A stretch of DNA of 64,000 nucleotides from Crambe crambe (Eukaryota; Porifera; Demospongiae; Poecilosclerida; Crambeidae): positions 930,001-994,000 of the forward strand of contig OZ004589.1 of NCBI GenBank assembly GCA_963924555.1, given 5' to 3'. Positions within the stretch are counted from its first letter, which is position 1; every line of letters starts with the position of its first letter. Positions 1,474 through 63,851 of this stretch are shown piece by piece. The position numbers and the translations under genes are program-made. The notes under the pieces were generated by a model, which did not search any database, had not been told where the DNA came from, and saw only the letters and a program-made list of their open reading frames with translations.

Positions 1474-4400
1474 ATGAGATTTCTTATCCTAATACTGTTC
1501 TTGAAATGGTGTTTCATCGGAGCTCAAGAGCTAAGTATGTTTCAATAGCTAGACCTGATCAGTTATAGCTAGGCATTTAATGTGGTAGTTAGCTTGTAGC
1601 TGAATATTGAAATTCCTATGACAAAATTACTAGTTAGCAAGTATAGCTAATAATTATGTAGCTGGGTACTCACCACAGTGGAATTTAAGACTAGGGGTGC
1701 ACTACGTGCAAAATCTTTACAGTTAGAATCAGAAATGGCCTATGCATATAGCAATAGTATAACAATCTGCAGTCTGCTCAGCCAATTTGATTCCTTTGCT
1801 TGCTCGAAGGGACACACTAAATATTGTGGTCAGATTGGAAGGTAGCTAGTTAGCAAGCTAAGAAGTGTTGCAGTAATAGCACACCAAAAAGTAAGCCAGA
1901 ATACAAACTCAGTTTAGCAGATAAGCCATGAATAAGTATGGCAGAGTAGCTAATGGCATAAAATATACAGTGGTTATATGATACAATGATACCAAAGTTC
2001 AATTGGACTTGATTATATCCTTGCTTTGCTCAGGATAAATATAACTAACTAGTTCCTTGATGGATATATCACTGTAAAAATGTGAAAAAACAACCAGGTT
2101 ATCTGAATTGGCCAGATAACCTTACATTTCTTTTTACAGTGTAGCTACCTCATCAAATCTGCAGCTCATAAGAGCTATAGTGCTTTGATTGTTTGTATAC
2201 AGCTGCTCCCAGCACAGGACTGTACTTCACCTTGAATGGTGTTGTGTATCTCCCTGGTGACACTGTACTCATTACTGATATTGGATTTGTTGATGCAACG
2301 GAAGCACATGAACCTAGATCTTCTCTAGTGTGCAACACTATCAATGTCAACACTCACTGCTGCAGAGGGATGGAAAATCCTAATGGAGGTCCTTTGGGGG
2401 ACTGGTACTTCCCTAATTATACAATAGTCCCTCGTTTAAGTGCCAGTCCTAATGGTGACTTCACTAGGAATGGCTTCACTCATGAAGTTCGTCTGAATCG
2501 CAGGAATAATGCCATGACACCACTTGGAACCTACACCTGTGTGGTGCCTGATATGAACAATGCAATGAATCACACTGCAACTATAACACTAGGTGAGTAC
2601 TCCATAATTATTGCTGAATGTAGAATGTTGGACTGGATCATGAAAGGTAGTGGCAGTCACTGTCATCCCCTGAAGTTTCATAGTATGACTCAAATGCATG
2701 ATCTTAACTGTTTCATAATACTCTACTCATGATTTTGCTTACAGATAATATTGATGAGTGTGCCAGTGCTACCACTAACAACTGTGACTCTAATGCTATG
2801 TGTACCAACACTCCTGGGAGCTTCACCTGTACATGTAACCAAGGATACACTGGAAATGGAGTAACTTGTGAAGGTAAAATACTGCTTTGTCTAGGTCATA
2901 ACCCAGTGGAAAATTTCTTTATCCAGATATTGATGAGTGTGTCACTAATAGCAACAACTGTGACTCTAATGCTATGTGTATCAACACTCCTGGGAGCTTC
3001 ACCTGTACATGTAACCAAGGATACACTGGAAGTGGCACTACCTGCTTTAGTAAGCAAGCTTCATACTATAGTGCAGAGCATCAACATCATACATAATTTA
3101 ATTGTCACACATACATCTGCCTTTATAGTGCCTCCTCCTTCCCCTGCTATGCTGACCACTTCTTCCCAGTCCACTTCCATCACTTTAACATGGAGCCAGT
3201 CTCCAGGGGATGTGGTGGACTCCTACCAAATCTCATACTCATTCACAATCAGAGTCTGTGAAAATCCAGGCAATGGTGTAACATCAGCACCTGGTTCCTC
3301 CAGAGAGTACACTCTGACAGGACTGGAGGAGAACAGTGACTTCATCATTTCCATCACAGCCATGAATGAAGCAGGGAGTAGTCCACCTGTTACCACCACT
3401 GCAAGGACTGCAATAGCAGGTAGGATACATCCATCATGATATGCTAGTGCAAGTGTCATCTACTGTACACTGCAGCTCCCTCTGCTCCTCCGGATGATCT
3501 GATGGTCTCCTCCACCTCTCCCACTAGCGTCTCCTTCTCATGGGGGGTAGTCCCATGTGCTGGCAGGAATGTGGATGGGATCACTGGATACCAAATAGTC
3601 ACTAGGACCACCTCTGATAATATGATTGTAGGAAGGCTCAGAGGTCACAGTACTAGAATATTTACTGCTAATCACCTCATTCCAAGGACAAGCTACACAT
3701 TTGAAGTTAATGCTCGCTATGAGGATATCAACTTAAATAATCCATTATTTGGACCAGCAGCTGTCATAGCAGGAGTCACTGCAGTACCACAAGGTAAGTC
3801 TTGTTGGGTTAAATTGTTTACTAAGTTATACCACCACTATCCTGTACAGCTGTTGGTTTCTTCCTGGGAGGCAGCAACGGCGTGTTGTACCCCAACAACA
3901 GTGTGGTGCCCTTGACTGATATAAGAGAAGGCTACAATGCTCTGCACTGTCTCACTAACCTCACCACCTGCTGTAGAGGAGCAGATGGTGGTTCAGCAGG
4001 AGAGTGGTTCCTTCCTGGGCAGACTAGTCCAGTGGTTGGTGTCAATGCTCCTAATGCAGGCACAGAGAGCTTCACTAGAAGTAGAGGTCCCAGTGCAGTC
4101 CTTCTCAATCGTAAGACTGGTGCTGTGGGACCCACTGGACTGTTCACCTGTCAGGTGCCTGATGAGAGTGGCATGGAGAGAACTCTGTACATTGGAGTGG
4201 GTGCAAGTACAGTCGACTAAATCATGTGATATGCATGTAGTATAAGTTTTCTCCTTGTTAAATTTACAGGTGTTCCTGCCATCGCTGACCTTGACTATGA
4301 TCGTGCTTCAGGGACCTTGACATGTGTATCTAGTGGTGGACCTGTGGATTCAGTCACTTGGATGAAGGATAGGTCACTCATCCGAGGAGACAGTTTAACC

Positions 4401-7400
4401 TTCTCTCTGAGTCAGAATATCACTAGCACAATATCATCTACCTACCATCACACCCTCTCCAGTTCAAACTCCTCTAACTTTGTGGGGAGCTTTACATGTA
4501 CTATCAGGGATGCAGTTGGCAATAGTAACAGCAGGACCCAAGTATTCAATGGTATGGTTTATTAGTGATTTATATACTATATGACATGGTGTTACTGTCC
4601 AGGTATTGAAGTATCTAATGATCCCTTTGTTGTGGGCAGTCGTGCAGTGGTCACTTGTTCCAGTGACTCTGGTGTTGTTGACAGAATAGAATGGGTGTCC
4701 AGGGAGGGGGGGGTGCTGGTCTCTGGGATGTCAATACAGCAACTCATGTATGTAGTGGACCCAGTAAGGGATGACCTCCATAGGTCAGAGTTCATATGCA
4801 ATATTACAAGAAATCAAATGGTTTTCAACCAGACACTACCACTAACTGTAAGAGGTAAGTGATGATGTTCCCTCACTGAGTCAGTTATGTACTAGCTGAT
4901 AACTAGAACCTATTGATTTGTCTGATTTTGTAGTTCCTGAAAACGCCATCTCTGTCTCCATCAGCCAATCAGGGAGACCAGTGGCAGGATCAGAGTTCAA
5001 CCTGACCTGCACCGTATCTCAGGTCATTTCTGGCCTGGCTAACATGCCTACTGCTGCATGGCTGGACTCAAATAACATGGCCATCACACAAGATACGACT
5101 GTTTCAAGGAGTGATAATGTCTCTACTGCTATTTTGCAGTTTAATCCACTGAGGACATCTTTACAGCAACGATACAGATGTTCAGGGACCATTGTGTCCC
5201 CAGCTCTTCCTAATCCTGTGCGAGTCACAACAGACAGTACTTTCATAATAGAGAGTATGTTTAATAGTGACTGTTACTGCTAGTGCAGGAGTGAACTATT
5301 GTACTATGCATCTTGCAGTCTCAACTCCTACTGTGTCCACTACTGTGCCATCTGGTCCTCTCTTTGCTGGAGGTGTGGATAATGTGACTCTTACCTGTTC
5401 TGTCATGTTGGGTGCTGGTGTGGATAATCCTGCTGTTATCCGCTACTCCTACACTTGGCTGGACAGAGAGGGCTGAGAAATAGTATCTAGGGGTCGTACT
5501 ATCATCACCCCTACTACCCCCTCCACCAGCTCCTTCTCCACTCTCACCCTCTCCCCCCTCGGCACCACTGACACCAACTTCACATGCAGAGTCACACTCA
5601 GTGATTCACGAAACTTACTGCGTCCCAGTGATCCCGGAGAACAAAGAACTCTCATCAATGTTCTGAGTAAGTACTAGTAAATACCGTGGTATTATTAAAT
5701 TATATTTTTAACATATTATTCTCAGTTCCCTGTGCCCCCGCGGTGAGGATTGAGTCTGCTGGTGAATCCACCACTGGAGTCAACCAGACCCTCACCTGTA
5801 CTGTGACCTTGGAACAAGATCTCAGGGCCCCACTCCTGATTCAGTGGACAGCACCTAATGGAAATATTGTTGGGAATGAGACTCTAGTGGATGTGACAGT
5901 GTCCAGGTCTTCCAACAACCTGTCCCTCACCTTTGACCCCCTCCACACCAGTCATGGAGGCCAGTACTCCTGCATGGCCAGTGTCAATGTACCTGAGGCC
6001 AATATCTTCATCGGTGGACAAGCCTCACACAACATCACAGTTCATTACCCTCGTCTGGTGATTACTAGATCAATTCTCACTGGTGAATGCGTAACAAATG
6101 AAGTGGCTACCTTGATCGGCAATGTCACTCTCACTCCCAGCACTAGTGGTAATCCCACATTCAGTTACACCTGGCAAGCTCCTTCTGGTCAAAATATCAC
6201 CACCTCCACTGGTGGCTACACAGTTAATCAAGGATCCTTACGTGTTGGAATAACACAGGAAGATACACACTTTATATCTGTGCCAACATCCCTGAGACTG
6301 GTGTGGTGAACCTCTGTAACTCCACTTCTTTTGTTCTGCACACTGATGGTAAGATACCTGCTAGTAACCACCCCAAGATACTTGTAGTATGTATGTCCAT
6401 ATAGCTAGCTACTAGCTTAAATTTTCTTTCCTGAAGAACCTGGCCAAGTCACAGGGTTAGCGTGTTATTCCTCTGGTGGCAGTGTTTTCTCCTTTAACTG
6501 GGCACCTCCTTCTGTCTATCCCGAAAGTATTGTTGATTATGTGATGGAGGTCACTCAGTACATCCAACCAGAAGGCACCAGACGTCTCCAGTCCATCCCT
6601 CTCAATCCACCTTTCTCTCGAGAAATCGCGCCCTTTGAATCTCTTATAGCTGTTGTGCAATCAGGAGTTGGTGAGGTCTAATGAACTATAGCTAAGTACC
6701 TCTTTCATTATAATATGTATGCAGCAATGCATGTTCCATACAATGTATCAGTGATGCCTCGTAATCCTGCTGGATGTGGCCACACCACCACCAGAGTTTG
6801 TTTCACTGAAGAAGGAGGTATAGTTACCTATGAGCTGAGGTATTCTACCTCATCTAATTATTATTATTCCAACACAAACCAGTAACTAATTCTTATTGTC
6901 ATCTTTTCAACAGTTCCAGCTGTTGCTCCTGGGAGTGTCACTGCAACACGACCACAAGATGATATTGCAGCCTTAATTGTCACCTGGGAAAGTCTGACCT
7001 TGGTTGAAGCTAGAGGCTTCATCAGTTACAGGATTATGCTGCACCCTGTGAATTCCAATGGGAGGCAGGATGTGGCACTCACCATGACAGTACCAGGGGA
7101 TCAGAGCAATGCTACATTCGATAATGTCGATATTTCAGTGAATTATGAAGTCAGAGTTGGTACTGTGACCTCTGATGGTCGTAATAGTGGACCAGGTATA
7201 ATCGGAGTTTTGCCTTTTAAGCTGATAATTACTGATCTTTTTTTGTAGATTCTGAAGTGCTAGTCATACCTGCTGTCATTATCCTTTTACCAAATGTCAC
7301 CATTACTGGTTCTCCTATTAATTCACACTATTTCTCTGGTCTCCAACTCAACCTGACCTGTCACATTCAGCTCCCAATGCCCATTGAATATAGAGTCAGT

Positions 7401-8672
7401 GTATCCTCTCAGTGGAGCAAGTCAGGCTCTGTCCTCACTTCAAACAGTCGAATGAGTGTTGATGAGGAAGCAGTAGAGGTGGGACCACTTCTCTACCAGA
7501 GTAGTCTAGTGTTTAGCTCCCTGGATAGAGACAGAGACGATGGAAACTACACTTGTTCGGTAACTGTTAGTCCCATTGGCATTTCTCCAGTGACAGTCAC
7601 GGCTTCACACACAATCTCAGTGGAAAGTAAGGATTCCTTTTCATATATAACTAGAAAGATTAGCATGCAAGCATTGGTACGTAGAACATTTAATTTTTTT
7701 GTATTGACTATTATTGTAGCTGCACTCATTCAATTGAGGTTGATTGGAATAACAGATTGTAACAACTGGAAGGTACTATAGATTCTGTTAAAACCATGAG
7801 CAGTATAGCTTTATAACAATATCATAATAGGCAGAGAATCCTGAAAGTAAAAACCGAGACATAGTTGATGCTATAACAAGAAATGTCTTACATCATTGTG
7901 GTTGTGGCTTCTCAATGGATCGTATCAGAAATGAAGGCTTCCAATGTTTCCCTTCCTCTCCTGATGCTGTCACTTACCGAGCAGAACTCCATGGAACTCT
8001 AGAAGCTTCTGTCTCTGACTTGATTGAAGACATCACTCAATGGCTGTCTTCTGGTGCTCTCATTTCAGTGCAGCTACAATGACTTACCATAGACAGTTCT
8101 TGCTCTGTAGCCATAACCTCCTTCAATGAGAATGAGTGCAGGAATACTGGGACAAGAACAAATGGACCATCCACTGGTGCAGTTGTCGGGACTACCATTG
8201 TAGTCATTGTTGCCATAGCTGTTCCCATAGCAATTGCTATCATTGTCGTTATATTATACCTATGTCATAAGAATCATCATGCTACTCTCAAGATGACAGA
8301 TACCAAGTGAGTTGTATATTGCAGTTTAAATAATATCTAGCTATATTATTGTGTGTGTTTCATAGGGGTGAAGAAGGGATGGCCATTCAGCTGAATTATC
8401 TGAACCCCAGCCCCCCATATACTGAAGAACAGCATGATTATGAGGACCTTGAAAAATACAGTGAAATCCGTGATATCCCACCAAAGATCCCACCAGGACC
8501 AGCTGCACAGTCCTCCCTTCCAGCTGCCTCTGGTGGTGACTATGAATTCACCACCTGCCCTGCCTATGTTCCTGTCACATCACAGGGTCAAAGTTCAGTG
8601 CCCTTTGTGGATGGGAATTCAGGAACAGAAGAGACACAAATACAGTATGAAGAGGCAGTGGTAGTAGCATGA
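1474..8672 (+). pseudogene. Ig/EGF/FN3 transmembrane receptor, copy 1, with stops and a frameshift
   Basis: Exons inferred from GT/AG sites and homology to copies 2 and 3: signal peptide 1474-1534 (MRFLILILFLKWCF start); N-terminal Ig 2203-2592; EGF 2745-2873, 2927-3049; FN3 3129-3419, 3476-3793; Ig 3850-4206, 4270-4551, 4603-4854, 4934-5254, 5319-5666, 5726-6348; FN3-like 6437-6670 with 6725-6817; FN3 6914-7195; Ig 7249-7626; juxtamembrane 7720-7772 and 7831-8306, which also holds the TM helix; tail 8366-8672. Nearly all exons keep phase 1-1. Three lesions break it: TGA at 5474-5476 (AGA in the paralogues), exon 5726-6348 is 623 nt so out of frame, and TGA at 8080-8082 (CGA in copy 3). Five Ig modules of copies 2 and 3 are absent. 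Splicing signals look preserved, so it may be a young pseudogene, a null allele, or partly sequencing error. Confidence 0.7.
2069..2145. mobile_element. Small inverted-repeat element in intron 1 of copy 1
   Basis: The ends are CACTGTAAAAA and TTTTTACAGTG, inverted copies of each other. Inside is a second palindrome, GGTTATCTG and its complement CAGATAACC. The same termini bound the minisatellite-bearing element at 25451-25706, so this is probably one MITE family. Confidence 0.55.
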
Positions 8673-9231: not shown

Positions 9232-9298
9232 ATGAGGCTCCTTTGTATACTGATTCTTTTCATTTTGGGATGGCAGATCATGAGTGCTCAAAGTCAAG
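9232..9298 (+). CDS. Signal-peptide exon of receptor copy 2
   Basis: It starts [15 protein letters not shown] and ends in SAQSQ, a short hydrophobic core with a plausible cleavage after SA. It ends phase 1 at a GTATGT donor, compatible with every downstream Ig exon. The ATG is chosen because the same leader and exon recur in copies 3 and 4. A headless remnant of the exon (the last 30 or so bases with its donor) lies at about 10799-10831. Confidence 0.8.
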
Positions 9299-12200
9299 GT
9301 ATGTAGAAGTGCCAGGCTAGTTAGTAATAGATGATCATGCATTCTCAGGCCAAATGTATAGTCTGCTCCTCAAGCCTTAGCTAACAGCAGCTTAGCGATC
9401 ACTCACATTGATTGCATCATGATATTAAAGTATAATGTATTTAATTAGCTAGCTACAAGATAGCTATTTTTAAAAATTCTTTTCTAAAAGCAGGACTGTA
9501 CTTCAACTTAAATGGTGTTGTGTATCAACCTGGTGACACTGTACTCATCACTGATATTGGTTCATATTTTGATCTTGGATCTCCTCTTGTGTGCAACACT
9601 TACTATGTTAATGCTCACTGTTGTAGAAGTAGTGATAATCGTAATAGAGGTTCTGTGGGGGACTGGTACTTCCCTAATGGTACCATAGTCCCTCGTTTAA
9701 GTGGCAGTCCAAATGGTGACTTCATTAGGATTGGCTTTACTTTTGAAGTTCGTCTGAATCGCAGGAATAATGCCATGACACCACTTGGAAACTACACCTG
9801 TGTGGTGCCTGATATGAACAATACAATGAATACAACATGTAATAGCTAATTATTATAGCTGTAAATGAAGTCACAGTTATAATATTATAGTGCCCCTATA
9901 AGTGTGTCAATAATAATCATGGGTTATGTACACACCATGGAAATGTATAATTGTTAGCCATTGTGTCAAGTCTCAATCCCATGATACAAGTTGATAGCTA
10001 ATTTTTGCTAGATATCAATCTGGGGCTCTTCAGGAGGTTGATAGAGGCTGAGAAGTGGTAGTCTCAAATGCAGCACTCCTATTAGTCCAATTTTTAAACT
10101 AGTATACAAAAAATAGTTATTTGCTAAGGGGTCACATACCAGTAGCTATTATAGCAAAGAGATTGAGGGAGGGGGAGATTAAATGATCACACCATAATAA
10201 TTATTGGATATGGAAAAGAAAAAAGGACATACCAAGTTATTATATGTACTAGCAGAGCAGTAGAAAAGCTTGAATGTGATTTCAACCATGTACATCATGA
10301 CCACTTACTGCTAGCCTTTTTATCTAAACTCACTGGCTTCGTATTTTTGTAAACATTTATTTTACAGTATGTTTTGACAACTTGAATTTGGTTATGTTAA
10401 CTGCCAACTGTGATTCCCCTAGCCTGTACCTTCAGCATGTACATAGGTGCTTAGGACTACAATTATGTTGATATTGAGGTTGGTGTAGCTAGTGGGTAAT
10501 CATATTCTCTGATGTGCATCACTACCAATATTGATTAACACTGAAGTGCTCGGCATAATGGAACTGCATGCTCTGTACCATTATTATCATAGACCATTAT
10601 GGTGGCCAGGAAGGGCCGACATTCCAAACTGCACATTTAAATTTCCATAAGATGAAATCGGGATTAGTCAACACAGCATGTGTTCCTTAAATGTTGATGA
10701 GTCTGATGAGTCTGATATCTTATTTCAGCTATAGCTACTCAACCTCTTTTGTTCATATTTTTTTGATGTTTAACTTGTCATCTCTACATAACTTTTTCTT
10801 TTCATTTGGGATCATAAGTGCTCAAAGTCAAGGTAGGAGTGCCAGGCTAAATTAATGATGATCACTCTCAGGGCAAGTGTATAGCTGCTCCTATATAACT
10901 ATAGCTAGCCATCACTCTCATTGATTGCATTAGTATAATGTACTTCACTAGCTATAGCTACAAAATGATTCCTAATTCATTTGATGTTCTAAAAGCTCCC
11001 AGCACAGGACTGTACTTCACCTTGAATGCTGTTGTGTATCTCCCTGGTGACATTGTACTCATCACTGATATTGGGATTGGTGTAGTGGCTCACCCTGATC
11101 CTGGATCTTCTCTTGTGTGCAACACTTCCAATGTCAACACTCACTGCTGTAGAGGGAGTGATAATCCTAATGGACCTGGTCTGGGGGAGTGGTACTTCCC
11201 TAATGGTACCATAGTCCCTCGTTTAAGTGCCAGTCCAAATAGTGACTTTACTAGGACTGGCTGGACTCATCAAGTTCGTCTGAATCGCATGAATAATACC
11301 ACAACACCACTTGGAACCTACACCTGTGTGGTGCCTGATATGAACAATGCTGCAATGTATCACAATGCCTCTTTAACACTAGGTGAGTACAAAATATAAT
11401 ACTTATTACTAGTGAATGCTCATGCATTATTGGGCGAGCGAGCAAAGCATTCTGTTTTCTTTACTCTAGGTGCCTTCTTTTTTCTTTGTTCCTTTTTTGT
11501 CACTTCAGAGCTCTCCATGTTTATCGTTTCTAGTTGATACTTTCAGTTTCCTAGCAATGAGTTTGGAGCCTGCGCAGTATTATTAACTATTGGAGCATGC
11601 GCGCTAGTTATTGATGTACCAAATATATAAATATGCGAATCTCAATTTGCATCACAAGTGTGTGGCTCGATCACTTTGTTCGCTTGCCGATTATAGCTGT
11701 AAATGAAGTTACAGTTATTAGTGTGACTGATGTTCATCCCTATGAGTGTGTCAAATATGGGATATGCATGTATACACCATGCAAATGGTATTCAAGTCGC
11801 GATCCCATTGGAACAGTGAGGAACACTAATTTTTGCTAGATATCAATTGGTGGCTCTTGTGGGAGGTTGAGAGGCTGAGAAGTAAAGTGGTAGTCTCAAA
11901 TGCAGCACTCCTATTAGTCCAATTTTAAAACTAGTATAATTAATATTCAATATAGTAGTTATTTACTAAGGGGTCACATAGCTATTACAGCAAAGAGATT
12001 AGGTGGGGAGGGGGAGATTGACCACAACTTCATGTACGTACTATAATTATTGCTGACATTGAACTTGGGTAACTGGGAGATGGAAACATGTTATGTACTA
12101 GCAGAGAAGCTTGAATGTGATTTCAACCATGTATATGTACTGCTTTTTATCTAAACTCACTGGCTTCATATTTTTGTAAATATTTATTTTACAGAATGTT

Positions 12201-27142: not shown

Positions 27143-28312
27143 CTTACTATTACAATACACTTGCTAGTACCAGAGTTTACTATTTTTACATCTTGACCTA
27201 TGCTGAATGATTATACCACATTGATACATAGCTAGGTGGAGAAACCCCCATACATTTTTTTTGGGGGGGGGGGACATTGCCCCCATGAAATTTTCTACCT
27301 TTTCAAATCTCTCCCAGGCCCCCAGCTACTCTACTAGTATAGCAAAGTAGTTCAGCTTCAGTAGTTACATGTCACCAAGTAAACTGAACCACATCTCTAT
27401 GACTACAAGTGATACAAGATCAAGTGATGTAGCTACAGGGCTGATATCATAACCATAAACAAGTAGCTAATAATGTTCAGCAAAATAGTATGTTGTTATG
27501 CATAAAAGTGTAGCTAGCTACACCTTATAGCTAGCTAGTGTGACAGCACATGAGCTAGAATGGTGGGGGGGATCTGGATCTCCCTGCCCCAAATAATCTG
27601 ATCACTTGGGAAGGCAGTTGCATAACTACCAAGGCTGCATGTATTGGCTATTGTGTGCTAGTGTACTGTATCATCAGGTTTACATTATTATAAGTATATA
27701 AACGTTAGATATTGATGAGTGTGCCAGTCCCAATAGTGCTTGTACCATATACATTTTGATCTCTGTGTGAGACTTAATTAAATAATCCATCATTTGGACC
27801 AGCAGCTGTCATAATAAGAGTCACTGCAGCATACATAGTCTAGTCTATACAATCTACGTATGACTGCAGTACCACGCACAAGGTATAATTATAAGTCTTG
27901 TTAGTTATACCATCACGTACAATCCTATACAGCTGTTAGTTTCTTCCTGGGAGGGGGGCCATCATGAGTTAAGTGTGCATTTTCAATCTGGAGATGCCCC
28001 CTTACTAGCTAGCTAAGTGGGTCAAATTTGCATATCAGATTTTTTGCCATCTGAATAGCTGCTATTGAGTTCATGCATGCAGTCAAAAAAGAGAGAAGTT
28101 GTCCTATCAAACAGCAGCTAAATACACAACTTAGCTATAATAACAACAGACAGTTTTTTTAAAACATAGTGCAGGTGGGCCATAATGCAGTCCTCTTTCC
28201 AGAAAATAGTTTAAATAGCTAGCTACATAGCTAGACTATAGTGTGCTTTGCTGTAAAAGTAAGATTCACGATTGGTGTTGAGGAGCAAGTAGCCTTAGTG
28301 ACAAAGACAAGA
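27143..28312 (+). promoter_or_regulatory. Spacer with module fossils and copy 3 promoter region
   Basis: A G run sits near 27265. A fossil EGF start (ATATTGATGAGTGTGCCAG at about 27713) and a fossil FN3-2 end plus Ig start (27785-27955) show an old broken receptor copy. From about 27980 the sequence matches upstream regions of copies 2 and 4, including GGTGGGCCATAATGCAGTCC, TGTGCTTTGCTGTAAAAGT, GATTGGTGTTGAGGAG and the GTGACAAAGACAAGA leader before the ATG at 28313. Confidence 0.45.
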
Positions 28313-28370
28313 ATGAAGCTCCTTTATATACTGATTCTGGGATGGCAGATCTTGAGTGCTCAAAGTCAAG
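28313..28370 (+). CDS. Signal-peptide exon of receptor copy 3
   Basis: MKLLYILILGWQ to SAQSQ, ending phase 1 at a GTATAC donor. The upstream leader is conserved with copies 2 and 4. Confidence 0.75.
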
Positions 28371-34300: not shown

Positions 34301-37300
34301 CAAATAGTCACTAGGACCACCTCTGATAATGTGATCAGAGACAGAGAAAGAGGTCACAGGACTAGAATGTTCACTGCTAATCACCTCATTCCAAGGACAA
34401 ATTACACATTTGAAGTTAATGCTCGCTATGATGATATCAACTTAAATAATCCATTATTTGGACCAGCAGCTGTCATAACAGGAGTCACTGCAGTACCACA
34501 AGGTACGTATGTAAGTCTTGTTGGTCTGAATTGAGTTACGTATATCACAATCCTACAGCTGTTGGTTTCTTCCTGAGAGGTGTGTTGTACCCCAACAACA
34601 GTGTGGTGTCCCTGACTGATGTAGGAGAAGGCTACAATGCTCTGCACTGTCTCACTAACCTTACCACCTGCTGTAGAGGAGCAGATGGTGGTTCAGCAGG
34701 AGAGTGGTTCCTTCCTGGGCAGACTAGTCCAGTGGCTGGTGTCAATGCTCCTAATGCAGGCATAGTTGGCTTCACTAAAAGTAGATGTCCCAGTGCAGTC
34801 CTCCTCAATCGTAGGACTGGTGCTGTTGGGCCCACTGGACTGTACACCTGTCAGGTGCCTGATTGGAGTGGCATGGAGAGAACTCTGTACATTGGAGTGT
34901 ACATTGGAGTGGGTGCAGGTACAGACTATATATCATGTGATATAATATGTACATGTAGTATAAGTTTTCTCCTTGTTAAATTTTACAGGTGTTCCTGCCA
35001 TCACTGACCTTGACTATGATCGTGTTTCAGGAACCTTGACATGTATATCTAGTCGTGGACCTGTGAACTCAGTCACTTGGATGAAGAATGGGTCACTCAT
35101 CACAGGAGACAGTTCAACCTTCTCTCAAACTCAGACCATCACTAGCACAATATCGTCTACCTATCATCACACCCTCTCCGGTTCAAACTTACCTAACTTT
35201 GTGGGGAGTTTTACATGTACTATCAGGGATGCAGTTGGCAATAGTAGCAGCAGGACCCGAGCATTCAATGGTATGGTTTATTGGTGATTTATATACTATA
35301 TGACATGATGTTCCTGTCCAGGTATTGAAATATCTAATGATCCCTTTGTTGTGGGCAGTCATGCAGTGGTCACTTGTTCCAGTGACTCTGGTGTTGTTGA
35401 CAGAATAGAATGGGTGTCCAGGGAGGGGGAGGTGTTGGTCTCTGGGACGTCAATACAGCAGCTCATGTATGTAGTGGACCCAGTAAGGGACGACCTTCAT
35501 GGGTCAGAGTTCATGTGCAGTGTCACAAGAAATCGAATAGTTTTCAACCAGACACTACCACTAATTGTAAGGGGTAAGTGATGATGGTCCCTCATTAAGT
35601 CAGCCATGTACTATCTGATAACTAGAACCCTCTGATTTTATCATGTAGTACCTGAAAATGCCATCTTTGTCTCCATCAGCCGATCAGGGAGACCAGTGGC
35701 AGGGTCAGAGTTCAACCTGACCTGCACTGTATCCGAGGCCATTTCTGGCTTTACTGACATGCCTACTGCTGCATGGCTGGACTCAAATAATATGCCCATG
35801 CCAACAATTATTTCAAGGAGTGATAATGTCTCTTCTGCTATTTTGCGGTTTAATCCACTGAGGACATCTTTACAGCAACGACACACATGTTCAGGGAGCA
35901 TTGTGTCCCCAGCTCTTCTTAATCCTGTGTTTATCACAACAAACAATACTTTCATAATAGAGAGTATGTTTAATAGTGACTGTTACTGCTAGTGCAGGAG
36001 TGAACTATTGTACTATGCATCTTGCAGTCTCAACTCCTACTGTGTCCACTACTGTGCCATCTGGTCCTCTCTTTGCTGGAGGTGTGGATAATGTGACTCT
36101 TACCTGTTCTGCCATGTTGGGTGCTGGTGTGGATAATCCTACTGTTATCCGCTACAACTACACTTGGCTGGACAGAGAGGGCAGAGAAATAGTGTCTGGG
36201 GGTCGTACCATCATCACCCCTACTTCCCCTTCCACCAGCTCCTCCTCCACTCTCACCCTCTCCCCCCTCAGCACCACTGACACCAGCTTCACATGCAGAG
36301 TCACACTCAGTGATTCACGAAACTTACTGCGTCCCAGTGATCCTGGAGAACAAAGAACTGATGTTAATGTTCTTAGTAAGTACTAGTGTATACTGAAGTG
36401 TACATGGTACACAATGTAGTGCAGCATTACTGATAGTGAACTGTGTCTGTACTATTCTCAGTTCCCAGTGCCCCTGTGGTGAGGATTGAGTCTGCTGGTG
36501 AATCCACTGCTGGAGTCAACCACACCCTCACCTGTACTGTGACCTTGGAACAAGATCTCAGGGCCCCACTCCTGATTCAGTGGACAGCACCTAATGGAAA
36601 TATCATTGGGAATGAGACTCTAGTGGATGTGACGGTGTCCAGGTCTTCCAACAACCTGTCCCTCACCTTTGCCCCCCTCCACACCAGTCATGGAGGCCAG
36701 TACTCCTGCATGGCCAGTGTCAATGTACCTGAGGCCAATGTCTTCCTCAGTGGACAAGCCTCACACAACATCACAGTTCAAAGTATGTGAGGATAGCCTC
36801 ATACAGAATTTATTTTCTTTCTTCTTTCAGTCCCTATGCCTTCCCTGGCCATCACTGGGTCACCTGTGGATGAGGGATTCCACACTGACCTCCTCCTCAT
36901 CCTCACTGGAAGGGCAGAATTTCACCCCGCTGTGGACACACCCCTCACTGTGAATGGAATGTGGACTAAGATAAATCCATTCTCCAACCTAGCGGCTGAT
37001 TCACGTGTGAGCATTAGAGGCCCTAGACTGGCTCAGGTGAGACCCATGATGGTGTATGAAACCAGCTTCACTGTGGACACACTGGATATGAGGAGAGGAG
37101 ACAGTGGAGACTACACAGTCAGACTGGACATTAGTTCACTTCCCTTTACTACAAGGACCACTGTCTCCCTCACACGCAGCATAGTAGTGTTAGGTAATAA
37201 TACCAGCTACTTCACCTTTATAGAGAGTGTGGGTTACTTTATATGCCATTGTATGCAGGCTTTCCTCCTCAACGAATCAGTGTTTCTCCTGTAGAAGTGG

Positions 37301-40300
37301 GTGTGCCCACTGCTGGTGACATGTACACTCTGGAATGCAATATCAGTCGTGCAGTTACCTTATCCATCTCCACCCTGCTGGAGGTTTTGTGGTTGGACCC
37401 CAATAATAGAGACATCTCTACTAACTCAAACTTCACCATTGTGGGAGACACCAACACCACAGCCACCTTCTTCATCAGTCGACTCACTTTCTCCCGCTTA
37501 AGGACCTCTCTGGGAGGAAATTACACATGTTCTTCCAACATGACCATTCCTGGTGGAGTAGCCACTGACCATCCAGTATCCAGCACCATCAGTGTCAGAG
37601 TCATCAGTAAGTGAAGACTACCTCTATAGTGCTACGTGTAGCATGTGACCATCCCTTCTACACAGTTACCCCAGCTGCATCTGATGATGTAACCTTCCTC
37701 CCCAGTCGAGGGGACCCTCTCTTTGTTGGAACTATTCTAACTCTCACTTGCACAGTGAATGTGGACAGGTCACTGGTGGACACTGACATTAACATCACGT
37801 TGAGCTTTACTAGCATTACGAACTCCATGAGGATCAACACCACAGTCTCACGGCTGAATGACTCCACATTCAGGGGAGTTGCTCAGTTCAGTTTCTTGCT
37901 ACCTTCTGATGACAGAACTACATACCAATGTTTATCATCATTCTTGCCATCCCAAGAAACTCCATTTGTAATGAGGGTCTCTAATCCACCTTCTAATCAG
38001 TACATCCCCACTATTCAAGGTACAACTGAGTGGATTTTAAATATCTTATTGACTAATGCTTGCTTTTGTCTAGCTCTGCCACCTCCTGTCATTACACTGC
38101 CTCCTTCACCAGTGACCATGGCTGGTCAGTCTCTCTCCTTCACCTGCACTGCCTCAGTCATTGAGTACTTAGCAGTGGACCCTGTCCTGGAGTGGGTCTC
38201 CAGTAATAGCAACCCCCTCACCACTATGGACACTACCAACAGTGGGGTGGAGTTCAACAGCACCTTAATATTCAACAACCTGCGAACCTCCCAGGGAGAC
38301 CAATACAACTGCTCTGCCACTATCAATGTCCCTGGCATCTCTTCAGTGCAGAGTGTGCAACCTCTTGATGTAGTAGTGCAAAGTAAGTAACTAGAAATGT
38401 AATAATGTTCACCTGCTCATAAGATAACCTTACGGAGGATGATATATTCTCCATCCAGTCCCCTCACCAACTTTAAACATCTTGAGAGAGTCACATCCTA
38501 TCAATGGGACAGTGGTGTCCCTCTGGGGGACAGCTCGACTCCACCCATCAGTGGACACTAGAGTGACTGTTACAGGATCATGGAGAAGACAGAACCTATC
38601 ACCATTTGCTACCATCACTCACATTACTCAAGCATCACTTTACAGCACCACTCTCACCTTTAACCCTCTGAGGAATGAGAGTGCAGATGGAGGAAGTTAT
38701 GTGTACAATGTTAATGTCACTCCAGCACAAGTTACTCCCTTCATCATACGTAACATGGATAATGAAAACTACACACTGACTGTGCAGCCTTACCCTGACC
38801 TAGTGATAAAGGACTCACTGCAAAGTGGTGTGTGTAGGGTAAATGAAACAGCTACCTTGATGGGGAACGTCACCCTCCTCCCAAACACTGCTACTAACCA
38901 CACTCTCAGCTACACTTGGACTAACCCTGCTGGTCAACCAATAACATCCTCCAATGATGACTATGTTGTCAATGAAGGATCTTTGCGTGTGGAGAACCTT
39001 GCTAATCAGAACAATATGGGTAACTTCAATCTCAGGATCTGCCTGGATGTCCCTGCAACTGACATAGTGGACCACTGCATCTCCACCTCCTTCACTCTGT
39101 CCACTGATGGTTAGACCCTTTAATATCCACAAATAAATCATGCACTTCATAAATTCCTGCAGTTCCTGGTCAGGTTACAGGATTGATGTGTTCTTCCTCT
39201 GGTGGCAGTGTTCTCTCCTTCAACTGGATGCCTCCTTCCCTCAATGCTGATAATGTCATTGATTATGTAGTGGAGGTCACGAAGTATGTCCAGCCTGAAT
39301 CTGCTGTCAAACGAATCATCACAAGACCTCTCACTCCAATTTTCATTAAGAATATCAAATCAGGCCCCCCTGTATCTTTGAGGGATGTTGTAGACTCAGG
39401 GGTTGGTGAGTGTTAACTTTGATTCATTGTAATGATGTACTCTTGTAATATTGCAGCAATGGGTATTCCATACAATGTATCAGTGAGGCCTCATAATCCA
39501 GCTGGATGTGGTCTCATCACCAATAAAGTGTGTTTTACTGCTGAAGGAGGTAAAAGAATTTGTATGAAGCTATCCCAGATCAAACAGACAAATTAGTTCA
39601 ACTCATACTGGTTTTCTAATAGTACCTGCTGTTGCTCCTGGAAATGTTGCAGTAACAAGGACAGAGAGTGACATCAGAGCTTTAATTGTTACCTGGGAAC
39701 CTTTGACCCTTGTGGAGGCTAAGGGGTTCATCAATTACACAGTGATATTGACACCAGGTGGTTCCCGGAAGAGACAGACTGGGGCACTCACCAGGACAGT
39801 ACCAGGGGATCATCAGAACAGTACCACATTTACTGATACTAATCCTGCCACAGACTACACAGTTATTGTTGGTACTCTGACCTCTGATGGTCTTAACAGT
39901 GGACCAGGTAGGTTTAACTTGTTTATACATAGCATTATCGTAGGAAGATGATTTGTTTTAGGGGGACCCAGTGCCAGTTTAGCTATACATTAACATGGTA
40001 TCATGGTATTGATTTTTCTCATTAAGACTCTGTTCCAGTTGTTGTGTCTGGACTGAGTGTTACTACCATCCCTCCACCCACTGTCACCATTACTGGTTCT
40101 CCTATTAATTCACACTACTTCTCTGGTCTCCAACTCAACCTGACCTGTCACATTCAGCTCCCAATGCCTAGGGGCTATAGAGTCAGTGTCTCCTTTCAGT
40201 GGAGTAAGTCTGGCTCCATCCTCGCTTCAAACGGTCGAATGAGTGTAGACGAGGGAGCAGTAGAGGTTCTCTACCAGAGTAGCCTGGTGTTCACATCCCT

Positions 40301-41448
40301 GGATGAAGACTTAGATGGTGGAAACTACACTTGTTCAGTGACTGTTAATCCCATTGGGATTTCAAACCTTCTTCCAGTGACAGTTACAACTTCACACACA
40401 GTCTCAGTAGAAAGTAAGGACTCTTAGCTGGTGATAGTTATAACATAGCAAGTTTACTTAATAGCCTAACAATTATTGTATGCACTTTATACATGTGCAG
40501 CTTCACTCATTCAATTGAGGTTGACTGGAATAACAGATTGTAACAACTGGAAGGTAAAATTAAGAATAATTTTTGTTAACATCATGTCCAGTAGCTACGT
40601 ATGCCATAATAGGCGGAAAATCCTGAAAATAAAAATCAAGACATAATTGATGCTGTAAGAAGAAATATCATTCGTCGTTGTGTGTGCGGGTTCTCAATGG
40701 ATCGTATCAGAAATGAAGGCTTCCAATGTTTCCCTTCCTCTCCTAATGCTGTCACTTACCGAGCCGAACTTCATGGAACTCTTGAAGCTACTGTCCCTGA
40801 CTTGATTGAAGACATCACTGAATGGCTGTCCTCTGGTGCCTCCATTTCAGTGCAGCTGCAACGACTTACCATAGACAGTTCTTGCTCAGTTGCCATAAGC
40901 TCCTTCAATGAGAATGAGTGCATAGCTACTGGGACAGCAACGAGTGGACCATCCACTGGTACAGTAGTTGGGATCGCCATTGGAGTCATTGCTGCCATAG
41001 CTGTTGCCATAGCAATAGCTATTATAATAATCATATTCCTACGTCACAAGAATCGTCGTGCTACTCTCAAGATGACAGACACCAAGTAAGTCACCATTAT
41101 AGCTTTAACTATTTCAAGTGTGATCATTAATTCCCTAGGGGTGAAGGAGGTGTGGCTGTTCAACTGAACGTCCTGAACCCTAACCCCCCACATGCACATA
41201 CTGATCAACAGCATGATTATGAGGACCTCGAAAAATACAGTGAAATCTGTGATATCCCACCTAAGACCCCACCAGGACCAGCTTCACAGTCCTCCCTTCC
41301 AGCTGCAGCTGCCTCTGGTGGTGACTATGAATTCACCACCTGCCCTGCCTATGTTCCCGTTACTTCCCAAGGTCAAAGTTCAGTGCCATCTGTGGCAGAT
41401 GGGAAAGGAACAGAAGAGGGGCAATATGAAGTGGTGGTAGTACCCTGA
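28313..41448 (+). CDS. Ig/EGF/FN3 single-pass transmembrane receptor, copy 3 (complete)
   Basis: Exons: signal 28313-28370; N-terminal Ig 32405-32788; EGF 33274-33399, 33452-33580; FN3 33830-34123, 34185-34502; Ig 34559-34918, 34989-35270, 35322-35573, 35649-35963, 36028-36375, 36462-36782, 36831-37193, 37259-37606, 37666-38019, 38074-38382; double Ig 38459-39109; FN3-like 39163-39405 plus 39457-39549; FN3 39623-39907; Ig 40027-40413; juxtamembrane 40501-40553; juxtamembrane plus TM 40613-41085; tail 41139-41448. The sum is 7056 nt, about 2351 residues, in frame. It is closely similar to copy 2, introns included, with one EGF fewer. The tail has YEDL, YSEI, PPKTPPGP, GDYEF and QYEVVV. The weak point is the start: the signal exon is 4 kb from the Ig exon, across a large palindrome and a broken Ig exon. 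Confidence 0.8.
28395..28477 (+). pseudogene. Broken N-terminal Ig exon (first quarter only)
   Basis: It begins like exon B of copy 2 ([19 protein letters not shown]) and departs from homology after DTVLI, soon reaching TAA. The piece after the break resembles the intron that follows the intact Ig exons, so a deletion removed the rest of the exon with its donor. It must be skipped for copy 3 to be made. Confidence 0.65.
28794..28956. mobile_element. MITE with GGAACCTGGTTATA termini
   Basis: Left TGGAACCTGGTTATAGTGGTCAC, of which the first 14 or so bases form the core; the right end is its inverted copy with few mismatches. Non-coding. Confidence 0.7.
29250..29440 (+). pseudogene. Fossil N-terminal Ig exon
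   Basis: It retains GTACTCATCACTGATATTG, TCTGGATCTTCT and GGGGGGAGTGGTACTTTCCT in the right order, but the frame is broken and both splice sites are gone. Confidence 0.6.
29546..29685. mobile_element. Palindromic element with GTTAG ends
   Basis: Inverted arms share GGGATCTAAGTTATTTAGAG and extend outward to GTTAG/CTAAC. The centre is unusually GC-rich for this window (GACCCGAGCGCAGCGAGG). Non-coding MITE. Confidence 0.65.
30044..30114. repeat. 71-base hairpin palindrome
   Basis: TACTAAGTGCCTAAC, then GTAGGTTTACTAAGTGCCC, is followed directly by its complement with about one mismatch and almost no loop. It could form a cruciform or an RNA stem. Confidence 0.8.
30182..32043. repeat. Large palindrome with about 900-base arms
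   Basis: About 30182-31083 is the reverse complement of about 31142-32043, with a loop of roughly 58 bases. Landmarks pair in mirror order: TTAGAACACGGTAGTC, the poly-A tract at 30620 with poly-T at 31585, AGTGCGTTATGAGTCATAACG, and CCTAATACATTTACTCCC. The outer part of each arm is itself palindromic (30188-30305). A repeat in each arm has AGTTCGAGTCTG on the minus side of the left arm, like a Pol III B-box, and a poly-A end, so it may be a tRNA-derived SINE. The reading frames over 30397-30647 and 31565-31827 are the same repeat in both arms, not genes. Confidence 0.85.
32405..32788 (+). CDS. N-terminal Ig exon of copy 3
   Basis: A 384-nt, phase 1-1 exon. [54 protein letters not shown], donor GTGAGT. 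Unlike most paralogues it has GEWFFPNG rather than GEWYFPNG. Confidence 0.85.
33625..33740 (-). repeat. Possible tRNA-derived SINE fragment
   Basis: The minus strand contains GCAGGTTCAATACTCAGC, close to a B-box, preceded by GATGGCTAAAGTCAG. It sits in the EGF-FN3 intron of copy 3 and is absent from copy 2. A weak call. Confidence 0.3.
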
Positions 41449-41506
41449 GGTACTCCATCATCTAACATGTACATCTATAATGATATAGTTATCAAGTAGT
41501 TAAGTG

Positions 41507-42082
41507 AACAATGTAGCTATAGTCACACTGTGTGCTCAATGTTTAACAATGTAGCTATAGTCACACTGTGTGCTCAATGTTTAACAATGTAGCTATAGTC
41601 ACACTGTGTGCTCAATGTTTAACAATGTAGCTATAGTCACACTGTGTGCTCAATGTTTAACAATGTAGCTATAGTCCACTGTGTGCTCAATGTTTAACAA
41701 TGTAGCTATAGTCACACTGTGTGCTCAATGTTTAACAATGTAGCTATAGTCACACTGTGTGCTCAATGTTTAACAATGTAGCTATAGTCACACTGTGTGC
41801 TCAATGTTTAACAATGTAGCTATAGTCACACTGTGTGCTCAATGTTTAACAATGTAGCTATAGTCACACTGTGTGCTCAATGTTTAACAATGTAGCTATA
41901 GTCACACTGTGTGCTCAATGTTTAATAATGTAGCTATAGTCACACTGTGTGCTCAATGTTTAATAATGTAGCTATAGTCACACTGTGTGCTCAATGTTTA
42001 ACAATGTAGCTATAGTCACACTGTGGCTCAATGTTTAACAATGTAGCTATAGTCACACTGTGTGCTCAATGTTTAATAATGT
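41507..42082. repeat. Minisatellite, 38-bp unit, about 15 copies
   Basis: The unit contains AATGTAGCTATAGTCACACT followed by GTGTGCTCAATGTTTAAC. Copies are nearly identical; a few have one or two missing bases or TAATAATG in place of TAACAATG. There are no spacers, so it is not a CRISPR array. Single diverged units lie downstream of copy 2 (about 24000) and copy 4 (about 46150), so the array grew in the 3' flank of copy 3. Confidence 0.95.
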
Positions 42083-43098: not shown

Positions 43099-44072
43099 AT
43101 GAAGCTCCTTTATGTACTCATTTTGGGATGGCAGATCATGAATGCTCAAAGTCAAGGTAGGAGTGCCAGGCTAGTTATAGTAATGATAATCACTCTCAGG
43201 GCAAATGTATAGTCTTGCCAACTGCTCCTCTAATTGAAGCCTCAGCTAATAATAGCTTAGCCATTATTCACATTGATTGCATCATGGTATTAAAATACAA
43301 TGTACTTTAACTAGTTTGCACGAAATAGCTAATACTTGAGCTCCCAGCACAACTCAAATCATTTTTTTCCCCACCACTACCAATATTGATTCTCTAGAGA
43401 TAACCAATGGGGGAGTGATCTGATGTATCATCATTACCATAGTGCCCAAAAAGGGCCATTCCAATTAGCAACATTTCCAAACTGCACATTTACAATATAG
43501 AAATTTCCATAGCAATAAGATGATGACAGTGAAATTGGGATTAGTTATTACTGCAGCATGTGTTCCTTGAGATAATGATGAGATATCTTATTGGGTAAAT
43601 TCAGCTAGCATACTCGACCCTTCTTGTTTGTAAACTTTTTTATGTTTGATTTGTCATCTCTACTTTCATTGTAGCCATAACATGTTTTTGAAATCACTTG
43701 TATCAGCTAGTTAGAAAAATATACATGATCACTTACTAGCTATCTCTGTCTTCAGCTCTCCCTCCCCCTTTATTGCTCAATTACCTTGGAAATGGAAAAT
43801 ATGACTTTGATTACATAGGCTGTTACATAGGCAGCAATTATAAAGATAATGGGCCTAGAAAGTACGTAGGAGAAGTGATTGTTTAGTACGTACAGCTGTA
43901 AATTATTTATAAAGACTGAGCAAACACATGCACAGCTTATCCTCTAAAAATGTTGTTGGAGTGTATATGAGAGTCAAGTAGAATGGCTCACCATGGAGGT
44001 CCTATAGCTATACACTCCAACGATTATACGAAAGATGCTTATCTGCTCTCTCTGAATGATCATCAAAAATAG

Positions 44073-44447
44073 GTGTTAGCCCAGGACTCTACTTTACCTT
44101 GAATGGCAGAGTGTACCAATCAGGTGACAGTATATTCATCACTGATATTGGGGAGGCCCTACCTGTACCTAATAATGCTGATCCTCGATCTTCTCTTGTG
44201 TGCAACACTTCCAATATCAACACTAACTGCTGTAGGAGTAGGGATGGAGGGAATGTGGGGGAGTGGTACTTCCCTAATGGCACCATTGTCCCTCGGGGTA
44301 GTACTGGTGGTGATATCACTAGGACTGGCTACACTCATCAAGTTCGTCTGAATCGCAGGAATAATGCCATGACACCACTTGGAAACTACACCTGTGTGGT
44401 GCCTGATATGAACAATACAATGAATCACACTGCCACTATAACACTAG
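44073..44447 (+). CDS. N-terminal Ig exon of copy 4
   Basis: A 375-nt, phase 1-1 open exon, [19 protein letters not shown] to [18 protein letters not shown], donor GTGAGT. It has R-S-R after NCC where others have CCRG. It is in phase with the copy 4 signal exon and the following EGF. Confidence 0.75.
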
Positions 44448-44649
44448 GTGAGTGTATGGTTCAATTAAAGAAGACTAGCCATTCCTGTGAGTATTTTATA
44501 ATAGCTGTTAGCTGCTCGTTCCATAATGATTGATTGCTAAGTGCAAATTTCTTTTGTTCATGCACAGCTCTATAGTTTCAGGCACCCCCTTTACTCCTGC
44601 AGTCTTTGGGTTGACTCCTGCAATTATCCTTGATAGTCCTCCCATTAGC

Positions 44650-44810
44650 TACAGTGAAACCTGCTTACAGCAATACACCTCTGGGCCACGTAAAAGTGGT
44701 CTTATTAAATAGGGAGGTGGAGGTCAAAATCAATTGAAGTAGCAAATGGTCTTTATAGAAGGGTGGTCTCTGGATACAAGTGGTCTTTAAACCAGGCTTC
44801 ACTGTACCAC
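44650..44810. mobile_element. MITE with ACAGTGAAACCTG termini
   Basis: ACAGTGAAACCTGCTTACAG on the left and CAGGCTTCACTGT on the right. The interior (GTGGTCTTTATAGAAGGGTGG) is shared with about 14985-15105 in copy 2. Both lie in the intron before the first EGF exon, so the insertion predates the duplication. Confidence 0.65.
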
Positions 44811-47103
44811 CATTTATTTGATCACTGCAAATTTAATTGTATATTATTATAATTTAAAAATCTCTGTATATTTTTCTCTACCAAAGGCATTGATATGTGT
44901 GCCAGTTCTACCACTAACAATTGTGACTCTAATGCTACATATACCAACACTCCTGGGAGCTTCACCTGTACATGTAACCAAGGATACACTGGAAATGGAA
45001 CCACTTGTGAAGGTATGTAGCTGTAGGTATCTAGGATTAATTCTCACTCGATCATGATGTAATGGCTTATGTGTAGATATTGATGAATGTATTGATGAAG
45101 TTGATAATTGTAGCTCTGATGGTAAATGCTACAACACTCCTGGAGGATTTAACTGTGTGTGTAACCAAGGATACACTGGAGATGGAGTAATATGCACTGG
45201 TATTAAAGTATAACTAATGCACAAACTTTTCACTATAATAATGTCATCATGTCAGATATTGATGAGTGTGCCAGTTCTACCACTAACAACTGTGACTCAA
45301 AATGTAACTTTTTAGACCTTATCAAGTAGTTGCCATATGCAAAATATTGGCCCATTCCCATGCATAGTTCCTGAGTTGCAATGACTTGTTCATTATTCAT
45401 GCTAGCATGGATTTTACATGTGCCAAAGCAGCAGCTGCTATTGTGTTTACTATCTGTTATTTTAGCGCGGTAGTGTTTGTGGTTAATTAGTGCTTGTACT
45501 AGCGCATGCCTTGGTTACTATGTGCCTGCACACTTAATAGCCTAACAATTGTTGTATGCCATCATGTGCAGTAGCTATGCCATAATAGATGGAAAATCCT
45601 GAAAGTAAAATCGAGACATAATTGACGCTGTAAAAAGAAATATCATTCGTCGTTGTGGGTGTGGAATCTCAATGGATTGTATCAGAAATGAAGGCTTCCA
45701 ATGTTTCCCTTCCTCTCCTAATGCTGTCACATACCGAGCAGAACTTCATGGAACTCTTGAAGCATACGCTCCTTCAATGAGAATGAGTGCATGGCTACTG
45801 GGACAGCAACAAATGGACCATCCACTGGTACAGTAGTTGGGATTGCCATTGGAGTCATTGCTGCCATAGCTGTTGCCATAGCAATAGCTATTATAATAAT
45901 CATATTCCTATGTCACAAGAATCATCATACTACTCTCAAGATGACAGATACCAATGGTTAGCTATAGCTTTAACTATTTCAAGTGTGATCATTAATTCCC
46001 ATTACTTCCCAAGGTCAAAATTCAGTTCCATCAGTGGCAGATGGGAAAGAAACAGAAGAGGGGCAATATGAAACAGTGGTAGTACCCTGAGGTACTCCAT
46101 CATCCCAGAAAAACTTGAAAACTTTTCTGTAGCTAGGTAGCTAGAACAATGTTGGTAGTCACAGATCAATTCATTGTGTGCTCTGTGTAAAATCACCAGC
46201 CGAGTTGCCCCACCCCTTTTATTTAGGCCGGTGTCATAGTCAGCGGTGACTCCCCTCGGCGATGACTCCCCGGTCACTTCTGACTAGGGGTGGATGACTC
46301 CCGGTCACTCATGCCTAGGCGTGGATGACTCCCGGTCACTCACGCCTAGGTCTGAGTGACTCCCCGGTCATTTCTGACTAGTCTATAATGACTCCCCCCT
46401 GGAAAAAATGACTCCCCAGTTCCGAGCACTCTTGACTAGGCGTGGATGACTCCCGGTCACTCACGCCTAGGTCTGAGTGACTCCCCAGTCATTTCTGACT
46501 TGTCTGCCCCTGGAAAAAGACTCACCAGTCCCAATTCATTGCATTGCTGCATGCAAAATCATAATAAGTCAAGGATTTATACCATAGTTGCTTATGAAAT
46601 TGGAATCTTTTGTGCCTAGGAAGAAATTACTCCCTGAATCAAGATAGATGGACTCCCCTATGCATGCATATAGTTGGAGTCATGACAGCCATGGAAGGAG
46701 AGTCATTTCATCCTATAGCCAGGCATTAGGCAAGATTTTCAGGGAGTTATTGGATAGGGAGTCATTCATGCCTGTAGGATGTGTCGACTCCCCTTCCATG
46801 GCTATCATGACTGTCCAGTCATCTCAATTCATGGAGTCATTCATGCCTAGGATGAAATAGCTCCCATTCCATCCATGCATATATAAATCAGATTGGGGGA
46901 CGAAATGATGTTTGCTTATAAAGGGGCAGATAACTCCCTGTGAATGCACTAAAGTTCATTCTCACACAGCTGATACAATAACAATAATAACAATAAGAAG
47001 ATAAGCTAGCTATGATTGCATGAACGGCACAAAATTTTTTCACTATAATATATTGTCATTATCTACACAGTCTTGGTGAAACCAATTAAAACAATGTTCA
47101 CAT

Positions 47104-49438: not shown

Positions 49439-63851
<14,413 letters not shown>

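Follow-up and report, generated by a model that had tools for sequence, protein, structure and literature searches.

Intact, broken and chimaeric members of a tandem family of giant Ig/EGF/FN3 receptor genes in the sponge Crambe crambe

Organisation of the locus

The window, i.e., the whole 64-kb stretch analysed here (bases 930001-994000 of the contig OZ004589.1 of Crambe crambe), carries on its + strand two intact genes encoding giant receptor-like proteins, g2 and g3, together with a broken mosaic copy (g1), a fusion copy, a truncated pseudogene (g4), fossil exons, and one or more neighbouring genes with scavenger receptor cysteine-rich (SRCR) and EGF exons; all feature positions given below refer to the window. 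Exons were identified by a simple splice-aware search limited to phase-1 exons and the models were then corrected by hand; the gene models are predictions from sequence with predicted splice sites, and some donors are weak, e.g., the one after position 22427 of g2. The phase-1 exons recovered in this search mostly encode one domain each. Signal-peptide-like first exons are located at 1474 (g1), 9232 (g2), 28313 (g3), 43099 (g4), and 49438 (SRCR/EGF neighbour), while Rfam and tRNA scans of the 64-kb window gave no matches.

The gene g2 (9232-23904, + strand) consists of 26 exons and encodes 2507 aa when both of its V exons are included and about 2380 aa with one of them; splice phases are consistent at all junctions and the sole stop is terminal. 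The gene g3 (28313-41448, + strand) has 24 exons encoding 2351 aa, with every junction in phase and a single stop at the end. These are the two complete genes of about 2350-2380 residues that an earlier note on this DNA had recognised. In the self-comparison of the window, the longest same-strand repeat pairs 16319-23913 with 33793-41457 (89.0% identity over 7737 aligned bases, introns included). The claim that these two copies match in introns also holds: among the 21 introns that are shorter than 700 bases and can be paired, 14 are at least 0.90 identical (rounded), four are at or below 0.60, and the pooled identity is 83.5% over 1464 bases.

Protein architecture

The predicted proteins contain, in order, a signal peptide, one or more V-like Ig domains, EGF domains, FN3 domains, a second V-like domain (V2), about 12 Ig domains with FN3 domains, a cysteine-rich SEA-like domain, a transmembrane helix, and a cytoplasmic tail; the layout is that of a type I membrane protein with one transmembrane helix, and the Ig-fold domains place the family in the Immunoglobulin superfamily. 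In g2, over the cut-off, the Pfam scan returned Ig_3, I-set, Ig_2, fn3, and EGF_CA. This gene has two intact exons for V-like Ig domains, a (10996-11382, +) and b (13052-13435, +), followed by V2 (17080-17445, +), which has a cysteine pattern as in the first V domain (V1). In g3, V1 (32405-32788, +) has a predicted Ig fold with a mean pLDDT of 84.5, V2 (34559-34918, +) is recognised by sequence, and the exons Ig1 to Ig11 (34989-39109, +) encode 11 Ig-like units, named by exon, with Ig10 and Ig11 in one exon and Pfam Ig families found in the g2 counterpart. By sequence, V1 had no match among solved structures at an E value of 10; the profile of the V domain gave weak rows for Ig proteins, the best of which (E 0.0098) stood behind a phage tail protein (E 0.009).

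The SEA-like juxtamembrane domain and the transmembrane helix are encoded together (JM/TM exon) at 23108-23580 (+) in g2, where they are recognised by sequence, and at 40613-41085 (+) in g3, for which a fold was predicted as well. The comparison of the predicted juxtamembrane fold with known structures by Foldseek gave no match at E 0.001, and the VIA rows were middling.

The tails, located at 23634-23904 (+) in g2 and at 41139-41448 (+) in g3, are short, kinase-free, and provided with conserved tyrosines and PxxP motifs; the g2 tail has five tyrosines. The tyrosine tails of the earlier note are thus present behind the transmembrane helix. A receptor tyrosine kinase was considered and rejected: the tail exon stops after 89 aa in g2 and 102 aa in g3, and no kinase appears in the Pfam scan of g2. 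The canonical ITAM (YxxL/I, 6-12 residues, YxxL/I) is found in none of 12 tail sequences, three of which are partial; in the same set an ITIM-like VQYEVV is found in three tails and single YxxL/I motifs in nine.

Broken, truncated and chimaeric copies

The copy g1 (1474-8672, +) includes a signal peptide (1474-1534), V1 (2203-2592), EGF (2745-2873 and 2927-3049) and FN3 (3129-3793) exons in its N-terminal part, V2 from 3850, Ig1-Ig5 (4270-6044) and an Ig11-like piece to about 6348 in the middle, and FN3 (6437-7197), Ig12 (7249-7626), JM/TM (7831-8304) and tail (8367-8672) at the C-terminus, all on the + strand. It is interrupted by in-frame stops in Ig4 and in the JM/TM exon and by a frameshift in the Ig11 piece; moreover, an internal deletion has removed Ig6 to about Ig10, and the Ig5 exon continues directly into the Ig11-like piece. 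Protein identity with g3 is 64-91% in V1-Ig5 and 70-88% from Ig12 to the tail, and it falls to 46% in the Ig11 piece, 56% in FNc1, 70% in FNc2, and 61% in FNd; FNc1 and FNd are closest to another copy of the cluster, H1016. These segment-wise differences, together with the H1016-like exons, indicate that g1 is a mosaic as well as a pseudogene.

In the fusion copy (25928-27143, +), part of a V exon runs directly into the last part of a JM/TM exon, and a tail exon follows at about 26838-27143; a frameshift and a stop near 26120-26139 break it. The truncated pseudogene g4 (43099-46090, +) retains a signal peptide at 43099, a V exon at about 44074-44447, EGF pieces from 44887, a damaged JM/TM exon from about 45585, and a tail piece ending with the stop at 46090. 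A fossil V exon, recognised by V-domain similarity and with the frame lost before its end, lies in intron 1 of g2 (9494-9838, +), and a second one, identified by eye, is found just 3' of the g3 signal-peptide exon (about 28390-28470, +). The multiply mutated copy, the truncated copy, the chimaera, and the exon fossils that had been listed from a first inspection are therefore all recovered, with the mosaic nature of g1 as an addition.

The surrounding cluster

A survey of 264 kb around the window (contig 840-1104 kb, i.e., 200 kb plus the window) kept 333 exon matches, of which 332 are on the + strand; they extend from 868.7 to 1078.9 kb. The family therefore forms a cluster of about 210 kb in one direction, of which the window genes are a part. 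Other long copies number at least five, with starts near 907, 1016, 1035, 1053, and 1072 kb of the contig, and in the copies at 868, 880, 889, and 920 kb a block EGF-FN3-FN3-V2-Ig1 is repeated within one stretch. Among the between-copy alignments listed, those of at least 1500 bases are 83.4-95.2% identical. The single orientation reported beforehand extends through the cluster; of the extent reported (1474-46090), both ends are real, as they coincide with a signal-peptide-like exon and the g4 stop, but this interval covers only part of the cluster. The tandem arrangement of intact and broken copies supports the proposed birth-and-death evolution of the Ig/EGF/FN3 receptors.

The neighbouring SRCR/EGF gene or genes (49438-63632, +, partial model) begin with a similar signal peptide at 49438 and contain SRCR and EGF exons and an exon of the JM/TM family (63053-63620). 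The JM/TM exons of the SRCR/EGF neighbours in the cluster belong to this same family, and in one neighbour a V1 exon closely precedes JM/TM (contig 1000523 and 1001203); in contrast, the Pfam scan of g2 shows no SRCR domain. Throughout the genome (143 Mb, 119 contigs), the JM/TM exon matched 97 places from 129 candidates, all scored, of which 18, including one with a stop, reach at least 60% identity over 148 residues or more; the V exon matched at least 150 places from 307 candidates, V2-type domains included.

Mosaicism and probable homogenisation of a 3' half

In all eight pairs of copies tested, the exon-to-exon variation in divergence exceeds that expected from uniform placement of differences; for the pair formed by copy D907 and g2, chi-square is 413 on 17 df, in a test that ignores constraint. 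In this pair dS is 0.091 in FNa-Ig8 and 0.011 in Ig9-tail, whereas for the pairs g2/g3 and D907/g3 it is close to 0.14 in either half. The near-identical tract begins near 20426 of the window, continues beyond the end of the gene as far as about 24.9 kb, spans about 4.5 kb and is 98-100% identical in 300-base blocks, with the last block at 95%. The best single split falls at 17395, in V2, and separates 13.9% from 2.7% divergence (chi-square 258, against a maximum of 18.0 among 1000 uniform placements); since this split lies before the start of the near-identical tract, divergence drops stepwise from the 5' end. The pattern fits a recent gene conversion or a recombinant duplication. A comparable step was not found in 300-base blocks of the pair J1053/K1072; the homogenised 3' half is seen in the single pair D907/g2.

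The comparison of g2 with g3 had also suggested exon replacement, with introns more conserved than synonymous sites; this reading was dropped because introns are on average at least as diverged as silent sites in most of 16 junctions of the cluster.

Selection and constraint by exon

Ratios of dN to dS were calculated by the Nei-Gojobori method over the copies in the 264 kb, dropping hits with stops or with less than 85% coverage, for 21 exon classes with n from 6 to 60. Among the least constrained classes by mean ratio are V1 (0.69, n=15), V2 (0.71, n=17), and the FN3 exon FNb (0.67, n=17); among the most constrained are the tail (0.31, n=9), Ig12 (0.31, n=6), EGFa (0.31, n=60), and Ig1 (0.34, n=17). 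Tree-based counting agrees, with 0.77 for V1, 0.78 for V2, 0.77 for FNb, and 0.38 for the tail. The copies tend to vary more at their outer than at their signalling ends, as would be expected of proteins for the recognition of other cells or microbes. For the stalk exons Ig3 and Ig5 the means are 0.55 and 0.51 but the median pair ratios 0.75, and the contrast is therefore not purely one of outer versus inner exons.

The ratio dN/dS per exon had been suggested beforehand as a check on a recognition role; in this one haplotype the outer exons are indeed among the least and the tail among the most constrained, but none of the 21 classes has a mean above 1 and positive selection was not found. In fact, site counting over 13 exon classes gave three nominal, uncorrected sites, which multiple testing would remove and which are treated as none. 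Between g2 and g3, total dN is 0.085 and dS 0.153 (ratio 0.55), and the four of 23 exons with a ratio above 1 (EGFb, V2, Ig3, FNd) have 2 to 6 silent differences each. Because every class has a mean ratio below 1, outer divergence could derive from relaxed constraint, which is the main alternative to a selected outer diversity. As regards position, Ig1 (0.34) and EGF (0.31) are constrained although they lie near the outer end.

Relatives and comparable systems

The protein searches depend on 5-residue words in common and on a fixed range of lengths, and their sensitivity is limited accordingly. Among the best 7983 candidates by shared words, the sole protein match to residues 430-2351 of g3 is A0A1X7U7Q4 (P0121) of the demosponge Amphimedon queenslandica (E 6e-34, 27% identity over 26%), the juxtamembrane domain of which is 30% identical to that of g3 over 132 aa (pairwise E 5e-18). 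The protein matches by themselves thus point to a demosponge host that probably lacks close relatives in the database searched. Like g3, this protein has many Ig domains with FN3 and, by eye, a transmembrane helix and a tyrosine/proline-rich tail; it differs from the family in its low identity and in a Pfam scan without an EGF family, and it lacks the CC motif of V1 type, because its only CC pair is located in the transmembrane region. For the V domain, no homologue was found at E 0.01 among 2356 candidates, and the search with the EGF-rich N-terminus was swamped by fibrillin-like EGF proteins and is uninformative on homologues.

The Alr genes and the allorecognition complex of Hydractinia were reportedly treated by Huene et al. 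in 2022. In the excerpts of the sources, this complex is multi-genic with 41 Alr members (PMC11999971), and the Alr proteins are tandem Ig-superfamily receptors with a signal peptide and tyrosine motifs (PMC12065747, PMC11999971, PMC13119343). The resemblance to Alr asserted in the earlier note stands for these characters, as well as for clustered copies with pseudogenes and tyrosine tails. It is an analogy only: no Hydractinia protein is among the matches of g3 430-2351 or of the V domains in these searches of limited sensitivity, the 12 tail sequences contain no canonical ITAM, and the proteins of the sponge are giant (2351-2507 aa), with EGF, FN3, and SEA-like domains.

Sponge aggregation factors are secreted proteoglycan proteins and are not known to be Ig transmembrane receptors. 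Grice et al. are said to have proposed them in 2017 as allorecognition candidates; both they and the present family are candidate self/non-self systems of sponges, with secreted proteoglycans on one side and Ig transmembrane receptors on the other. The Botryllus fuhc/fester locus is, in the available text of PMC12065747, a receptor cluster in self/non-self discrimination with an experimentally established function; it shares with this array the clustering of receptors, but the receptors differ and the function of the array is a prediction from sequence. Sponge SRCR receptors are presented in excerpts of PMC10855680 as a large lineage-specific expansion of recognition receptors, and in C. crambe SRCR genes adjoin the Ig genes and share their membrane module. 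Sponge receptors for self/non-self and for microbes are portrayed as largely unknown in portions of PMC12065747, in line with general knowledge. The kind of system is known; this variant was not found in the literature searched, in which titles and the starts of abstracts pointed to no paper on this family.

Interpretation

The genes of this locus probably belong to a tandem family of giant cell-surface receptors that cross the membrane once and serve in recognition, a family shaped by duplication, exon exchange, and 3' homogenisation. The outer V1 and the V2/FN3 region would bind a ligand carried by a microbe or by another cell, a cytoplasmic tyrosine kinase would phosphorylate the tail, and its phosphorylated tyrosines may recruit SH2/SH3 adaptors and start signalling. 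Selection may favour outer diversity. Copies would be gained by tandem duplication and lost again, exons or domains would be exchanged, and at least once a 3' half would recently have been homogenised; this turnover of the repertoire would let the outer half diverge and keep the signalling half alike. The array is chromosome-scale and combines intact with broken genes for giant Ig receptors, the outer part being more variable and the signalling part conserved; it offers defined exons for population sequencing and defined proteins to test.

A broader reading is put forward tentatively and is rather doubtful: an early-branching animal would possess a previously undescribed recognition system. 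Its giant Ig receptors would carry at the outer end a V-like domain that is cysteine-rich and specific to the lineage; the outer half would be diversified by exon exchange, and the membrane/signalling half, common to Ig- and SRCR-type ectodomains, would be kept uniform by gene conversion. If true, an animal that lacks adaptive immunity would have a variable/constant arrangement in its germline, and the array would be a candidate sponge allorecognition or immune locus.

In a narrower form of the recognition-receptor reading, the array would be a germline repertoire of innate immune receptors for microbes or symbionts. This is a possible reading, though held at less than an even chance; it agrees with the neighbours that combine SRCR, EGF and, once, V exons with the same membrane module, as well as with the many individual-specific immune receptors that a sponge expresses (excerpts of PMC8242945) and the sponge SRCR genes reported, some of them combined with FN3 or Ig domains (excerpts of PMC6208332).

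The copies could also be receptors for ordinary adhesion or for the matrix that unequal crossing-over has multiplied, relaxed in their outer constraint and with no repertoire function. Many adhesion proteins have the Ig-FN3-EGF layout, repeated exons favour duplication, and the mean dN/dS, which stays below 1 whatever the exon class, is in accordance with this view; it is nevertheless somewhat unlikely, given that two 7-kb frames have stayed intact at a pairwise dS of 0.153 and a total dN/dS of 0.55 and that many separate copies have constrained tails.

Within the recognition-receptor reading, an allorecognition complex that decides, like Alr in Hydractinia, whether individuals fuse or reject one another is the other narrower form and appears unlikely. 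Tandem Ig receptors, pseudogenes, divergence of the outer V exons, and tyrosine tails speak for it, and sponges are said to have polymorphic allorecognition (excerpts of PMC12065747); however, an Alr homologue is absent among the matches of these searches of limited sensitivity, the tails have a canonical ITAM in 0/12 and an ITIM-like motif in 3/12, and the SRCR/EGF neighbours are equally compatible with microbe sensing.

An assembly artefact, in which two haplotypes were put one after the other and account for some of the near-identical copies, is very improbable. The 98-100% D907/g2 stretch that runs past the gene end would suit it, but copies are otherwise 83-95% alike in the listed alignments of at least 1500 bases, with different exon content and neighbours, and 8.6% of the coding bases compared are different between g2 and g3.

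Membrane-proximal ends and tails of the receptor copies

In the long receptor copies I1035 and K1072, the transmembrane part and the cytoplasmic tail were matched (contig C12, 1043-1079 kb), while the exon search of this interval gave no match for either Ig12, the Ig exon preceding the juxtamembrane/transmembrane (JM/TM) module, or the juxtamembrane domain. For the copy J1053, the exon search over 264 kb recovered the tail alone, and the transmembrane part came from the genome-wide search with the JM/TM exon. The copies at 1043-1079 kb possibly possess a different membrane linker; the tail there contains VQYEVV. In the copy H1016, repeated EDEYEVMAA units continue the reading frame of the tail (contig C12, ~1024.98-1025.5 kb), multiplying a single tyrosine motif.

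SRCR/EGF neighbour and surrounding sequences

The plus-strand SRCR/EGF gene or genes (49438-63632), composed of SRCR and EGF exons, share the JM/TM module with the Ig receptors, have a signal peptide resembling theirs, and include a 1.9-kb duplication revealed by self-comparison of the window (54559-56476 vs 57460-59271, 91.5%). A DDE_3 transposase-like open frame (50161-50997; Pfam E 2.4e-29) lies 3' of the exon at 49438 that encodes this signal peptide; a minus-strand open frame of 276 aa (51036-51866) has a SHOCT domain barely above the Pfam cut-off and no other match at E 0.01 in the Pfam scan.

The overlapping tandem arrays at 47998-48914, with periods from 46 to 200 bp, are all based on a single motif. 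A minisatellite with a 38-bp unit (41507-42082; 15.2 copies, 98% matches) is located directly 3' of the intact receptor gene g3, and a 1.5-kb tandem duplication, 98% identical (contig C12, 928348-931342, extending into window positions 1-1342), directly 5' of the broken mosaic copy g1.
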